Part shown: in pieces, positions 6,515-39,436 of the stretch | How the letters are laid out: the number at the start of each line of letters is the position of its first letter | Position numbering within the stretch: the first letter of the stretch is position 1 | Assembly (NCBI GenBank): GCA_025358765.1 | Contig: JANYIG010000069.1 | Location: forward strand, 1 to 44,195 | Source of the DNA: Candidatus Kapaibacterium sp. | GTDB lineage: Bacteria; Bacteroidota; Ignavibacteria; Kapaibacteriales; UBA4661 | Direction: 5' to 3' | DNA: 44,195 nt | Notes under the pieces: model-generated | The model's database searches: none | What the model saw: only the letters and a program-made list of their open reading frames with translations | What the model was told of the DNA's origin: nothing | Translations under genes and position numbers: made by a program

Positions 6515-6755
6515 ATTTGCCTTTGCTTAAAAGTTGCTGAAAAAGAAATGTTGCTTTGAGGATGCCGATTGATGCTTGTTATTTTCGGTTAGACATAACA
6601 ATCGTAGCCAATATCTACAATTTTCTCCCCAAAAACTGATTTTTCCAACGAAATTCAGTAAGAACCATTTTTGTCTGTTTGTTGATTCTGTCCGTTCTTT
6701 TAACGATATTACGACGTAAGTATGTTCTTGGACAGTAAATCGTGGTGGACGATTA

Positions 6756-6782
6756 TTCGCTGTTCGCTGTTCACTGTTGAAC
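6756..6782 (+). repeat. TTCGCTG heptad array upstream of the RNA methyltransferase gene
   Basis: TTCGCTG, TTCGCTG and TTCACTG follow head to tail, then a decayed TTGAACT unit. The array ends 7 bases before the ATG at 6790. It is a third sequence type of 7-bp periodic repeat in this window. The rest of the 275-bp gap (6515-6789) between the divergent ldhA and methyltransferase genes is AT-rich with no recognised feature. Confidence 0.6.
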
Positions 6783-8310: not shown

Positions 8311-8318
8311 CGGAAGGA

Positions 8319-8374
8319 ATTAAGAATTAAGAATGGGGAATTAAGAATGAGGAATTACGAATGGGGAATTGCTT
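8319..8374 (+). repeat. GAATNNN heptad tandem array
   Basis: Eight 7-bp units in register: GAATTAA, GAATTAA, GAATGGG, GAATTAA, GAATGAG, GAATTAC, GAATGGG, GAATTGC. It lies directly after the methyltransferase stop and before the end of the minus-strand gene at 8406. The GAAT core is invariant and the three following bases vary. There is no coding signal and no hairpin with a T-run, so it is not an intrinsic terminator. Confidence 0.75.
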
Positions 8375-15543: not shown

Positions 15544-15554
15544 GAGGATGTTTG

Positions 15555-15600
15555 TCATTGGTCATTGGTCATTGGTTACTTGGACATTGGTTATTTGTCA
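15555..15600 (+). repeat. TCATTGG heptad array, left flank of the four-helix-bundle gene
   Basis: Three perfect TCATTGG units (15555-15575) are followed by degenerate TTACTTGG, ACATTGG and TTATTTG, ending in TCA. It starts 11 bases after the thrB stop. It is inverted relative to the array at 15990-16037, and both arrays end on the inner side with ATTTGTC. The reading frame of the next gene runs through it. Confidence 0.85.
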
Positions 15601-15999
15601 ACACAGAATATAGAAAAACAACGGCATACACTTGATGAGTTGGAAGTGTATCAACTGGCAATGACTATTGGTAAACGTTGTTGGGACGCAGCGATAACGT
15701 GGGATGATTTTGCTCGAAAAACGCTTGGGAACCAGATGATTCGAGCTGCGGATTCTGTTGCAGCAAATATTAGTGAAGGTTACGGGCGGTTTTCATACAA
15801 GGAGAACAAGCTGTTTTACTATTATGCACGTGGTTCGCTCTACGAGACGCGCACGTGGTTCGCAAAAGCACTCGAACGTCGCTTGATTACTGACAATGAT
15901 TATCAGGAACTCCAAGAAATTATCCAGCAATGCGGCAAAAAACTGAACCGTTATATTCAATCCATTGGCACAAAAGTCACTTCAATAGCCGACAAATGA
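15595..15999 (+). CDS. Four-helix-bundle protein (S23/IVP family, TIGR02436-like)
   Basis: About 134 residues if the TTG at 15595 is used; no ATG is well placed. The frame stays open upstream through the repeat to 15544, and the TTG at 15565 is another possible start. Family marks are LDELEVYQLAMTIGKRCW, then ARKTLGNQMIRAADSVAANISEGYGRFS and a helix ending in YETRTWFAKALERRLI. This family is known from genes inside 23S rRNA intervening sequences and as stand-alone genes; its structure resembles the Avd accessory protein of diversity-generating retroelements. The molecular role is not established. The stop codon lies inside the right-hand heptad array, and the gene splits thrB from thrC. Confidence 0.82.
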   Translation: MSTQNIEKQRHTLDELEVYQLAMTIGKRCWDAAITWDDFARKTLGNQMIRAADSVAANISEGYGRFSYKENKLFYYYARGSLYETRTWFAKALERRLITDNDYQELQEIIQQCGKKLNRYIQSIGTKVTSIADK

Positions 16000-16037
16000 C
16001 CAATTAACCAATGACAAATGACCAATCAACCAATGAT
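15990..16037 (+). repeat. CCAATGA heptad array, right flank of the four-helix-bundle gene
   Basis: Units CGACAAA, TGACCAA, TTAACCAA, TGACAAA, TGACCAA and TCAACCAA are followed by TGAT. This is the reverse complement type of the array at 15555. It supplies the TGA stop of the four-helix-bundle gene (15997-15999) and ends at the thrC ATG. Some units are 8 bp. Confidence 0.85.
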
Positions 16038-32390: not shown

Positions 32391-35300
32391 TCAGCCTTCC
32401 ATCACGAAACGAACATTTTTCTGCCCAAAGATTTTGATGAGTTCTTCCGTCACGGCATCATTTGGTTCAACCTTGATTTTCTGCGCTATGTAGCGTTTTT
32501 GAAGCTGTTGATGTTCATCAAACACGCTGAACCGTAGCTCTTTTGTGCCTTTGGCTGCGACAATGATTTGATGCGCCTTTTGGATGTCATTCGGTTTTGC
32601 CTTATCCCGTTGAACACTAATGTGCAAGCCCTTTGCGAAACGTTTTGGTGTGTCTTCAATCGGAATAACCTCGTCCACCGTAATTTTGACGGAATCGCTG
32701 CCATCAATTTTTGCTTTGCCAACAATCATCACAATAGTATCCTCCACAAGTTTGTCGCGGAACCGCGCAAATGCGTCGCTCCAGAACAAACACTCTGCCT
32801 TACCCGTAAAATCTTCGATGCCCACAAACGCTATCATATTTTCTTTTTTGTCGAGCTTCGTGCGAATACCCGTTATGATGGCGCACACACGCACCTGCTG
32901 CTGACTGTCTATCAGCTTACTTTCTTTATTGCCAAGCTGGAGGTTTGCGAATGCTGTGTGTGGGCGGTAGCGCTCAAGCGGATGCCCACTGACGTAGAAG
33001 TTCAGATATTCTTTTTCTCGTTTTAAGCGCTCGAAGTAGCTCCACTGCGCTGCCGTTGGTAACTTTGGCTCCATGACTGCCATTGCCGCTTCGCTGCCGC
33101 CAAACAAACTATCCATCGAAACATCTTGCGTTTGCGACTGTGCATTCGCGTATTTCAGCGCGTCGTCAATCGCGGCAAACAACTGCGAACGATGCCCAAT
33201 ATCCAACGAATCAAATGCGCCAGAACACACTAAGGCTTCAAGTGCACGACGGTTCACGGATTTCGTATCCACGCGGACGGCAAAGTCGAAAAACGATGAG
33301 AATGCTTTTTCATTCCGTGCACGAACAATGTTTGCCACCGCACCCTCGCCCACGTTCTTGATGGCAGCAAGACCAAAGCGGATGCGCCGTGAAGAATGGT
33401 CATTCGTTGCTTGGTCATTGGTCATTGGTGAAGACGCTTCCGCCGAATGACCAATGACCAATGACTGCTGACCGATAGCGGCAAACGAAGACAGCGACTC
33501 GTTCACATCCGGCGGCAACACTTCAATCCCGAAATACTTGCATTCATCTATAAGCAACACGATTTTATCTTGATTACTCAATTCCGCCGTCATGTTCGCT
33601 GCAAGAAATTCAGCGGGGTAATGCGCCTTGAGCCATGCAGTCTGGAACGCCAAATACGAATACGCCAGCGCATGTGATTTGTTAAAACCGTAGGAGGCAA
33701 ATTTCAAAATCAAATCGAAAATCTCACCCGCCAACTTTTTGTCGAGTTTGTTGTTGAGCGCCCCTTCGATAAAAAGTTCCTTTTGCTCTTCCATGAGTGT
33801 TGCGTCCTTCTTACCCATTGCACGGCGCATAATATCTGCCTGCGCGAGCGAAAACCCTGCAATGTCGCGTACAAGCTGCATCACCTGTTCTTGATACACG
33901 ATGATGCCATAAGTGGCTTTCAGAGCGGGTTCCATCAACGAATGCAAGGATGTAATCTCGGATTTACCTTGTTTGCGGGCGCAAAACTCCGGAATATTAT
34001 CCATTGGACCCGGACGATAAAGGGCGTTCATAGCCGTCAAATCCTCAAGGCTCGTGGGTTTGAGTAGCTTCAGATACTTTTGCATTGGTTCGGATTCAAA
34101 CTGAAACACGGCTATTGTTTTGCCCGCGCCTAACATATCATAGGTTTTTTTGTCGTACAAATCCAACGCATCTACGTCAATCTTTACGCCGTGATTTCGT
34201 TCAATCATTGCCACCGTATTGTCTATGATGGAAAGCGTACGTAGCCCCAAAAAGTCCATTTTCAGCAGCCCCGCGTCTTCCAAATCTTTCATGTTGTATT
34301 GCGTGGCAAGTGTGGCATCTTGCTTGAACAACGGCACAAAATTCGCAATATCACCCGGTGCAATCACCACGCCCGCCGCATGAATAGACGTATTCCGCGC
34401 GAACCCCTCCAGCACCAACGCATATTCGACGAGTTGCTGAATCTTCGGGTCGTCCGATTCTTTCACCCAGCGTAATTCCGGTAGCTCTAATGCTTCTTTA
34501 AGCGGCGTGACTTTGCCAAGGACGGTCGGAATAGGTTTGGTGATCGTATCCACTAACGAAAGCGGAATCCCCAGCACCCGCGCCACGTCTTTGATAACGG
34601 CTTTTGTGGAAAGCGTTCCAAACGTAACAATCTGCGCGACAGAGTTTTCGCCATATTTATCGCGGACGTACTGAATCACTTCTTCGCGGCGTTCGTCGTT
34701 AAAATCCACGTCAATATCGGGCATAGACACGCGGTCAGGATTCAAAAAACGCTCAAAGAGCAGGTCGTATTTAAGCGGATCAACGTTGGTGATGCCAAGT
34801 GCAAAAGCAACAAGCGAACCAGCAGCAGAGCCGCGTCCAGGACCAACGCTGATGCCCATTTCCCGCGCCGCATTGATAAAATCTTGCACAATCAAAAAAT
34901 AACCCGCAAAACCCATGTTCTTGATAACGCCAAGCTCAAATTCCGTCCGCTCCCGCACTTCCGGCGACGGCTCGCCCCCATAGCGCTTCGTAATGCCGTC
35001 ATAGGTCAATTCCTCCATGTACTCGTTCAAGGTTGTCGCTTCGGAGGTGCTTGGAATCGGGAATTCCGGCATATGGAGGTCGCTATTCAAGGTAAAATCG
35101 CATTTTTCGGCAATTTCGAGCGTGTGTTCAATCGCGCCCTCATATTCGCCTAACAATTCCACCATTTGCTCGGACGTTTTGAAGTAATATTCTGGTGTTC
35201 CATAACGCAGATTCCGCACCACGTCGAAGGTTCCACCTGTTGCCTGCGTTGCTTCCTTGATGTGCAGATGGACGTTATGCGAAACCGCATGTTCGGGCTT

Positions 35301-35939
35301 GATGTAATGGCAATCGTTCGTCGCCACGAGTTTGATACCAAGCTCACGAGCCAGCTTTGGAGCCAATTCCAGAATAGGCTTGTCCATGTCTATGCCATGA
35401 TTCTGGATTTCGATGTAAAAATCGTCACCAAAAAGTTCTTTGTACCAGATTGCCGACTCACGCGCCCTGTCGTAATCCCGGTTCACGAGCGCATCGCCCA
35501 CCACACCGCCCACGCACGCCGAGGTACAAATCAAACCCTCGTAGTGCTGCGCCAACACCTCGCGGTCAATACGCGGTTTGTAGTAAAACCCCTCGGTATG
35601 CCCGATGGTACAAAGTTTCATCAAGTTCCTGTACCCCGCTTCATTGCTGGCAAGCAACAAAAGATGATAATAATTTTTACTTTTGGTGGCAGCTTTGCCG
35701 GAGGATTTATCAAAGCGGCTTCCGGCAGCCATATATACCTCACAGCCTAATATTGGCTTTATGCCTGCCTTCTTCGCTTTTTTGTAGAATTCCACCGCGC
35801 CATACATCACGCCGTGGTCGGTCAGCCCAACAGCGCTATGACCATTGGCAACAGCAGCTTTGATGAGCGCTTCAGGCGTACATGCGCCGTCGAGCAAGGA
35901 ATAGTGCGTGTGATTGTGGAGGTGGACGTAGGTGGACAT
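32391..35939 (-). CDS. dnaE: DNA polymerase III alpha subunit
   Basis: 1182 residues. The N-terminal PHP domain begins YVHLHNHTHYSLLDGAC. The polymerase core has GPGRGSAAGSLVAFALGI and the catalytic aspartates in MPDIDVDFNDERRE (about 415-428), plus DFLGLRTLSIIDN, FQFESEPMQKYL and YRPGPMDNIPEF. HhH (IRFGLAAIKNVGEGA, about 850) and OB-fold (about 1010-1090) regions follow. It is the replicative polymerase catalytic subunit. Odd point: residues about 822-848 (QSLVIGHSAEASSP and MTNDQATNDHSS) are encoded by an inverted heptad repeat inserted just before the HhH region, in frame. The gene is alone on its strand after the OmpA gene. Confidence 0.96.
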   Translation of the reverse strand: MSTYVHLHNHTHYSLLDGACTPEALIKAAVANGHSAVGLTDHGVMYGAVEFYKKAKKAGIKPILGCEVYMAAGSRFDKSSGKAATKSKNYYHLLLLASNEAGYRNLMKLCTIGHTEGFYYKPRIDREVLAQHYEGLICTSACVGGVVGDALVNRDYDRARESAIWYKELFGDDFYIEIQNHGIDMDKPILELAPKLARELGIKLVATNDCHYIKPEHAVSHNVHLHIKEATQATGGTFDVVRNLRYGTPEYYFKTSEQMVELLGEYEGAIEHTLEIAEKCDFTLNSDLHMPEFPIPSTSEATTLNEYMEELTYDGITKRYGGEPSPEVRERTEFELGVIKNMGFAGYFLIVQDFINAAREMGISVGPGRGSAAGSLVAFALGITNVDPLKYDLLFERFLNPDRVSMPDIDVDFNDERREEVIQYVRDKYGENSVAQIVTFGTLSTKAVIKDVARVLGIPLSLVDTITKPIPTVLGKVTPLKEALELPELRWVKESDDPKIQQLVEYALVLEGFARNTSIHAAGVVIAPGDIANFVPLFKQDATLATQYNMKDLEDAGLLKMDFLGLRTLSIIDNTVAMIERNHGVKIDVDALDLYDKKTYDMLGAGKTIAVFQFESEPMQKYLKLLKPTSLEDLTAMNALYRPGPMDNIPEFCARKQGKSEITSLHSLMEPALKATYGIIVYQEQVMQLVRDIAGFSLAQADIMRRAMGKKDATLMEEQKELFIEGALNNKLDKKLAGEIFDLILKFASYGFNKSHALAYSYLAFQTAWLKAHYPAEFLAANMTAELSNQDKIVLLIDECKYFGIEVLPPDVNESLSSFAAIGQQSLVIGHSAEASSPMTNDQATNDHSSRRIRFGLAAIKNVGEGAVANIVRARNEKAFSSFFDFAVRVDTKSVNRRALEALVCSGAFDSLDIGHRSQLFAAIDDALKYANAQSQTQDVSMDSLFGGSEAAMAVMEPKLPTAAQWSYFERLKREKEYLNFYVSGHPLERYRPHTAFANLQLGNKESKLIDSQQQVRVCAIITGIRTKLDKKENMIAFVGIEDFTGKAECLFWSDAFARFRDKLVEDTIVMIVGKAKIDGSDSVKITVDEVIPIEDTPKRFAKGLHISVQRDKAKPNDIQKAHQIIVAAKGTKELRFSVFDEHQQLQKRYIAQKIKVEPNDAVTEELIKIFGQKNVRFVMEG
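33397..33475. repeat. Heptad-repeat hairpin inserted in the dnaE coding sequence
   Basis: TTGGTCATTGGTCATT (33411-33426) and AATGACCAATGACCAA (33446-33461) form a perfect 16-bp stem with a 19-base loop; degenerate units extend on both sides. Reading frame is kept. The units are the same as those flanking the four-helix-bundle gene. Confidence 0.9.
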
Positions 35940-38430: not shown

Positions 38431-38576
38431 AGTATTGAATGAAAATATGTGAACAGGGGAATGGATTGGTTTTATGGCGGCAAGATACGCACAGACGCGG
38501 TTTTTACCAACGCTTTCTCGTACAAGATTTCGTTGCAAGATAAATAATCACTATTTTCAAGGAACAGGGAATCTCA

Positions 38577-38614
38577 TGACTAATGACCAATGACCAATGA
38601 CTAACAACCAATCA
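38577..38614 (+). repeat. CCAATGA heptad array at the murI start
   Basis: TGACTAA, TGACCAA, TGACCAA, TGACTAA and CAACCAA in register, then TCACC. It overlaps the first six codons of murI. It is the same unit as in thrBC and dnaE but without an inverted partner here. The remaining gap to the OmpA gene (38431-38576) shows no clear feature. Confidence 0.8.
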
Positions 38615-39436
38615 CCTATCGGTGTGTTCGATTCCGGTGTGGGCGGCTTAACCACGGTTCGTAAGCTCGTCAATATGCTACCAAACGAGCGAGTGCTGTA
38701 CCTCGGCGACACGGCACGGGTTCCTTACGGCAATAAATCTGCTGCAACAGTGACGGCGTATTCGCGTGAATGTGTAGATTTCCTGATTCACCGTTCGGTG
38801 AAACTCGTGATTGTTGCTTGCAATACCGCATCGGCAATGGCGTTGGATGCCGTGCAAACCATTTCGCCTATACCCGTAGTTGGCGTGATAGAACCTGCGG
38901 CGTGCGCTGCTCTTCGCCACACAAAAAACGGACGCATCGGCGTTATTGGCACATGGGCAACGGTGCAAAGCAAAGCCTACGACTATGCTATCAAGCATTT
39001 AATGGCTGCAAACAAGGATGGGCAGGATATTCAAGACGTTCAGGTATTTAGCGAAGCATGTCCGCTGTTTGTGCCGTTTGCCGAAGAAGGCTGGCATTAT
39101 CATCCCGCAACTCGGCTTGTCGCAGAGGAATACCTTGCGCCGCTCAAGCGGGCAGAGATTGACACACTCGTTTTAGGTTGCACCCATTACCCGATGCTGG
39201 CGGACGTGATTCAGGATGTGTTGCCGCACGTGGCGCTCATCAACTCCGGCGAAGAAGCGGTAAACGTGGCTCGTGCTATTTTGGAAGAAAAACATATCGC
39301 CGCCACATATCCGGCGCTTAACCGTATTGTGGAATGCTACGTGACGGATAAAACGACGACGTTCTCGCAAGTAGCAGAGCGCTTTTTGGGGTTTCCGCTT
39401 GGAATGGCACAACAGGTGGTATTGGACGGACATTGA
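38597..39436 (+). CDS. murI: Glutamate racemase
   Basis: 279 residues. PIGVFDSGVGGLTTVRKL, LYLGDTARVPYGNKS, VIVACNTASAMALD with the first catalytic Cys, and LVLGCTHYPMLADVI with the second are all present, so both proton-transfer Cys residues are intact. It makes D-glutamate for peptidoglycan in the cytoplasm. The ATG at 38597 lies inside a heptad repeat array, and the first residues MTNNQS are repeat-encoded. The family core begins at PIGVFDSG, and no ATG occurs between, so this repeat-derived ATG is probably the true start. Confidence 0.95.
   Translation: MTNNQSPIGVFDSGVGGLTTVRKLVNMLPNERVLYLGDTARVPYGNKSAATVTAYSRECVDFLIHRSVKLVIVACNTASAMALDAVQTISPIPVVGVIEPAACAALRHTKNGRIGVIGTWATVQSKAYDYAIKHLMAANKDGQDIQDVQVFSEACPLFVPFAEEGWHYHPATRLVAEEYLAPLKRAEIDTLVLGCTHYPMLADVIQDVLPHVALINSGEEAVNVARAILEEKHIAATYPALNRIVECYVTDKTTTFSQVAERFLGFPLGMAQQVVLDGH

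Follow-up and report, generated by a model that had tools for sequence, protein, structure and literature searches.

The window, the whole stretch of 44,195 nucleotides analysed here, is one contig of a 4.86-Mb genome (G000) that was assembled in 362 contigs and is 98% complete; in what follows, "family" refers to a Kapabacteria-like family made up of this source genome and its family members G001 to G009. Positions 32391..35939 of the reverse strand hold dnaE, the gene of the DNA polymerase III alpha subunit (1182 amino acids), in which a Pfam search recognizes the domains PHP, DNA_pol3_alpha, finger, HHH_6 and OB. It is the only dnaE match in the genome, and its closest named proteins, 71-75% identical, belong to metagenome bins of Candidatus Kapaibacterium and Ignavibacteria. 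The gene is interrupted in frame by a hairpin made of heptanucleotides. Alignment with DnaE proteins from outside the family places the insert at 33390..33470 on the reverse strand, or residues about 824-850 (QQSLVIGHSAEASSPMTNDQATNDHSS), and the peptide SLVIGHSAEASSPMTNDQ can serve as a marker of its translation. Within the insert lie the two arms of a 16-bp inverted repeat, 100% identical: AATGACCAATGACCAA on the PMTNDQ side (33411..33426, reverse strand) and TTGGTCATTGGTCATT on the SLVIGH side (33446..33461, reverse strand), both given as read on the coding strand. A second register pairs 33414-33429 with 33450-33465. The complementary arms can form a stem, as they do in the S23/IVP cassettes discussed below: folded as RNA, the coding strand has a minimum free energy of -39.7 kcal/mol (z = -7.0), a value that 0 of 200 shuffled sequences reach, and folded as DNA it has a z-score of -6.3.

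The original prediction was that a perfect inverted repeat of 16 bp, made of heptads, adds about 27 residues to DnaE without a stop, and the locus agrees with it: the reading frame stays open across the hairpin. Counted from PPDVN up to the IK that follows GLAA, the linker has 53 residues here and 26-27 in all script-readable DnaE proteins outside the family, so the insert amounts to 26-27 additional residues. The prediction also held that homologs pass straight to IRFGLAA at this point. This is true outside the family, where the insert is absent, but the six nearest readable relatives have differing inserts of their own at the site. In the Taq PolIII alpha structure (2hpi), the insertion point corresponds to the turn ...VVGEE|ILFG. 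In an AlphaFold2 model of mean pLDDT 85.5, residues 826-849 form one of only three segments of the protein with pLDDT below 50, and they lie between strands 820-822 and 852-854; in the model, the insert is therefore a disordered loop that caps a surface beta-hairpin. Most likely it has no function in the polymerase, and we take it to be neutral.

The window contains other heptad arrays. Between thrB and thrC, on the forward strand, a gene of the IVP/S23 four-helix-bundle family (15565..15999; PF05635, 1.8e-27; TIGR02436, 2.5e-26) is framed by a left array of GTCATTG heptads (15549..15600, period 7 in TRF), the inverted partner of 15992-16026, and by a right array of AATGACC heptads (15991..16036), which together form a 35-nt inverted repeat at 89% identity. 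Since the same heptads frame IVP/S23 genes, whose relatives interrupt ribosomal RNA, the dnaE hairpin looks like a gene-less form of this cassette, as had been proposed; the proposal is supported in the sense of a counterpart, the cassette bearing its gene between inverted GTCATTG heptads. A one-armed array of the same family, detected with TRF and by direct reading, lies over the start of a gene with a Pfam Asp_Glu_race domain, probably murI (38576..38616, forward strand). Its heptads (ATGACTAATGACCAATGACC) cover the start codon, giving ATG and ATGA units, and may have an effect on the start of translation. Other units occur between genes, GAATTAA/GAATGAA at 8316-8370 and TTCGCTG at 6753-6781; several classes of heptads thus coexist in this genome.

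In general form, the element consists of two inverted arms of the heptad GGTCATT/AATGACC flanking a loop, over roughly 65-135 bp, with variable heptad number and loop. Its copies were studied in a 566-kb sample of G000 that includes contigs picked for their matches, so that densities are upper estimates. This sample contains 33 arrays of period 7 and none of periods 4, 5, 6, 8 or 10, the period being exactly 7 and its multiples. The pattern CCAATGACCAATGACCA, with at most one mismatch, has 56 sites in G000 and its reversed control has 0. Periodicity and reversed-pattern controls together rule out chance or low complexity. Of 42 clusters in the sample, 21 lie within predicted genes. In-frame copies are found in dnaE, mfd, cysS, genes of adenylate cyclases and of a DsbD-like protein and, twice, in a UvrD/PD-(D/E)XK helicase-nuclease gene; genes of two-component propeller proteins and a related gene series (loci L103 and L111) hold others. 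Across the family, in-frame hairpins of the CCAATGA type are also present in MutS and in a LeuRS(-like) gene. One part of the original prediction stands, that the gene of a replicative polymerase accepted the element in frame, but its scope needs widening: the event is not special to dnaE, which holds just one member of a dispersed family that occupies many genes. A survey of the phylum with CCAATGACC found a patchy distribution, in 21 of 296 genomes, and the unit is therefore not specific to the family; in some genomes, such as G168, the reversed "control" of this survey matches another heptad and is not neutral. The related genes at L103 and L111 (G000:C174 and C97) share a one-armed heptad peptide, WSLVVRHWSLVDGAYFLRLQT, near their C-terminus, in what looks like a strand of a sorting domain.

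The sequence of the unit imposes a rule on copies that are translated. On a strand that reads (GGTCATT)n no frame has a stop, whereas on a strand that reads (AATGACC)n every frame meets a TGA each 21 nucleotides; a coding arm in the AATGACC sense therefore cannot hold three perfect heptads. The original prediction saw this in dnaE, where it noted that a changed unit evades the expected TGA, and rightly so: AAGCAACG yields core spacings of 7, then 15, and the CAAGCAACG it pointed out is one of the 8-nt units. We collected 33 two-armed hairpins from the family, 19 in genes and 14 elsewhere. Among coding arms, the numbers of core spacings of 7 and 15 nucleotides are 43:1 in the GTCATT sense versus 22:23 in the AATGAC sense (p = 8.6e-8). 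Each of the 19 in-gene hairpins is open in exactly one of the three coding-strand frames, the frame that is used, and in 17 of them the opposite strand has no open frame; as an open frame was the criterion by which these were collected, the absence of stops is partly by construction. The other 14, which are intergenic, have an open frame on only 7 of their 28 strands. The sets of dnaE, mutS and mfd genes defined by homology are free of this bias, and none of their family matches is broken at the insertion site: no stops were reported in the dnaE and mutS searches, and the two stops in mfd are natural gene ends.

Both dnaE and mutS are recurrent insertion sites. The DnaE linker is enlarged in all 7 family species in which it can be read, to 40-69 residues, and the repeat differs from one species to the next: AACCAAG-like repeats in G003, CAACACT heptads in G006, a single ACCAATGA remnant in G005 and in G007, an unrelated CCCTCTCCC/GGGAGAGGG palindrome in G002, and an enlarged linker with no obvious repeat in G004. 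The insert is thus not conserved at the protein level even in the nearest relatives, and the objection foreseen in the original prediction, that such conservation might be found, falls. The C-terminal linker of MutS has full heptad hairpins in four species (G002, G003, G005 and G009); G008 keeps a remnant, G007 has a different heptad (GAATTAC), and G000 and G004 have no hairpin. At the Mfd site, G000 has a heptad hairpin and G002 a CTC-type palindrome in the same place. Since other repeats occupy these sites in family members, the tolerance of the sites accounts for part of the pattern. Neither a target-site duplication nor an exact empty site was seen by eye, the nearest relatives being only about 75% identical in DnaE. 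A second palindrome of G002, unrelated to the heptads (peptides SPQPSPKGRG...PLPLGEG), is in frame at the same dnaE (L014/L185) and mfd (L200) sites.

The association between heptads and IVP genes extends to other genomes. An inverted repeat flanks 15 of 23 IVP loci in the order versus 3 of 165 other genes (p = 6e-14), and heptads are present on both flanks of 10 of the 23 versus 1 of the 165; these counts take IVP loci above the family cut-off, with the cassette of the window removed from the control genes. The units of the cassettes differ: GGTCATT, GGTTTTG, GCGAATG, GTTATAA, GAATTAG, GAGTTCA and others. The unit also co-varies between cassettes and gene-less hairpins. GGTTTTG is dispersed 20 times in G145 and 84 times in G168, two genomes of one genus that both have GGTTTTG IVP cassettes, and these sites include gene-less hairpins (L328, L329, L343, L344); it occurs 0 times in most genomes whose cassettes bear other units. 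In G319, all 24 GCGAATG sites lie within about 8 kb around the IVP gene, so spread there is local, not genome-wide. IVP genes are few, from 0 to 3 in each family genome, and several genomes with hairpins have none at all. IVP copy number was also considered as the cause of hairpin number, and rejected: 0-3 genes face up to 56 pattern sites. A Kapabacteria relative, G168 (L312, L325, L328-L342), combines 7 IVP matches with two or more heptad classes, among them GGTTTTG and ACCAGTA, and is a suitable genome in which to ask how heptads and IVP proteins pair. A literature search that covered few subscription journals found no report of a connection between IVP genes and dispersed heptads.

We consider it probable that the insert of dnaE is one translated copy of a dispersed heptad hairpin, the gene-less counterpart of the IVP/S23 cassettes, which spreads by insertion and is kept when it can be read. 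As a description of anatomy, a gene-less IVP cassette kept only when readable is well supported: the dispersed hairpins lie in frame at surface loops of conserved genes, in-gene copies obey the stop rule, IVP genes are bounded by inverted heptads, and cassettes and gene-less hairpins share a unit in G145 and G168 as well as here. As for mechanism, we infer duplicative insertion as the route of spread and IVP as the mobilizing agent. Copies would spread perhaps through a hairpin intermediate, of single-stranded DNA or RNA, bound by the IVP protein, and their arms would afterwards shrink, grow and mutate through slippage. Within genes, purifying selection would spare copies whose net length keeps the frame and whose AATGACC-sense arm avoids TGA, an 8-nt unit following after no more than two perfect heptads; because of this selection, the copies left in genes would all be in protein loops, such as the tip of the DnaE beta-hairpin.

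The first alternative dispenses with mobility: slippage and hairpin-templated repair during replication would build heptads and palindromes locally, in loops that tolerate changes of length. Slippage does act on these arrays. At L116, a locus and its duplicate have similar flanks but heptad numbers several units apart, single-heptad remnants are found at L010 and L011, and the heptad content of one site varies between species. However, local events do not predict one unit at the 56 places counted in G000. In G003, moreover, the LeuRS-like and MutS copies share 87% identity across 95 nt, loop included, which, between unrelated genes of one genome, local slippage cannot produce. A post hoc loop motif, RCGRCA, is present in 12 of the 33 hairpin loops versus 1.9 expected. 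For these reasons, we regard a purely local origin as unlikely.

A second alternative is transposition of the REP/RAYT type, in which a Y1 tyrosine transposase spreads the hairpins. Relatives do have PF01797 (Y1_Tnp) genes, one kind of which is embedded in frame in RecG, but G000 has no PF01797 match despite having more heptad sites than any other member of the family, and the peptides around the gene inside RecG are like a different palindrome rather than these heptads. Such transposition is very unlikely in G000. The RecG genes form a curiosity of their own: at L292 (G007:C10), L291 (G003:C58) and L297 (G006:C139), a RAYT-like Y1_Tnp domain, bordered by QTFLSVQ/QTRMSVP peptides, sits in frame between DEQHRFGVLQRAELKKK and HIMVMSATPIPRTLSM, and the helicase gene is unbroken; this was read directly in L292 and L291, and from match positions in G006.

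The insert might instead be domesticated, its loop or mRNA hairpin serving the host, for example in translation control of the polymerase or in binding a partner. That the site is enlarged in every readable family member, and that the hairpin is stable, would fit, but neither sequence nor length is conserved, the AlphaFold2 model has the segment disordered, and unrelated palindromes occupy the same site; we find this role improbable. Still harder to credit is an element acting at the RNA level, its mRNA hairpin cut by RNase III as in the 23S intervening sequences that bear S23p (PMC4990558): the RNA hairpin is strong, but a cut dnaE mRNA would not yield a full-length polymerase, and the strict frame and avoidance of stops imply that the insert is translated. 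An assembly artefact or chance can practically be dismissed, since, even with a metagenome-style assembly, the insert is in the interior of a 44-kb contig, the phenomenon recurs in many genes of several independently assembled species, and the controls above rule out chance.

Returning to a mobile hairpin related to IVP cassettes, a more general conjecture can be formulated, which we advance only tentatively and hold to be rather doubtful in its full extent: IVP/S23 proteins, whose role has been a puzzle for decades, would drive, or serve as heptad-specific partners in, a mobile system of which the heptad hairpin is the smallest unit. The IVP of each lineage would recognize its own heptad, the 23S intervening sequences would stem from insertions into rRNA, and insertions into protein genes would persist as in-frame peptides. 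With the heptad hairpins tied to the IVP/S23 family, the old puzzle of the role of the protein and the mobility of the element becomes directly testable, by asking whether an IVP protein binds, and helps to copy, the heptad hairpin of its own genome.

Several known systems invite comparison, the closest being the Rickettsia palindromic elements and the 23S rRNA intervening sequences. REP/BIME sequences with their RAYT, and MITEs, are small, palindromic, dispersed and non-coding repeats, as these hairpins are; the lack of PF01797 in G000, in a genome 98% complete, sets them apart from the former, and for the latter no target-site duplication is visible by eye among relatives about 75% identical. 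Heptanucleotide repeats are also known in cyanobacteria. In Beggiatoaceae, those of the type TAACTGA lie almost exclusively between genes and as direct repeats, a single case being inverted (PMC4679880). Both groups share with the present element units of exactly 7 nucleotides and many copies, many of them just upstream of start codons; unlike the repeats of Beggiatoaceae, inverted pairs form hairpins here, within genes too.

Intervening sequences of 23S rRNA with an S23/IVP ORF occur in Coxiella, Leptospira, Brucella and others. The one of Coxiella carries an S23p gene, ends in inverted repeats and contains GACAGAT heptamers in tandem; its mobility by means of its ORF was proposed long ago (PMC4990558). 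The likeness lies in a stem bounded by inverted repeats, in heptameric repeats, and in the same protein family in the cassettes. The differences are that the dnaE copy is without the ORF, which is found in the thrB-thrC cassette, that it is located in dnaE and not in 23S rRNA, and that copies in genes must be translated, not excised.

The behaviour is also that of the Rickettsia palindromic elements (RPEs), dispersed palindromic repeats whose in-frame insertion gives unrelated proteins new peptide segments (PMC10969869). By description, the heptad hairpins are alike: dispersed palindromes, 19 of them in genes, in frame and in unrelated genes. Unlike RPEs, they belong to a different phylum, are shorter, with clusters of about 65-135 bp and no fixed family consensus of about 150 bp, have arms of tandem heptads with rapid turnover, share their repeat with the IVP cassettes to which they are linked, and reuse the dnaE and mutS sites in related species. 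Protein-invading palindromes are thereby extended from the obligate intracellular Rickettsia to a bacterial lineage known from metagenomes, in genes such as dnaE, mutS and mfd, and with a clean stop-codon rule. The element works like RPEs, without a fixed consensus, and it shares the stem and the heptads of S23 intervening sequences, without their gene and their rRNA site.
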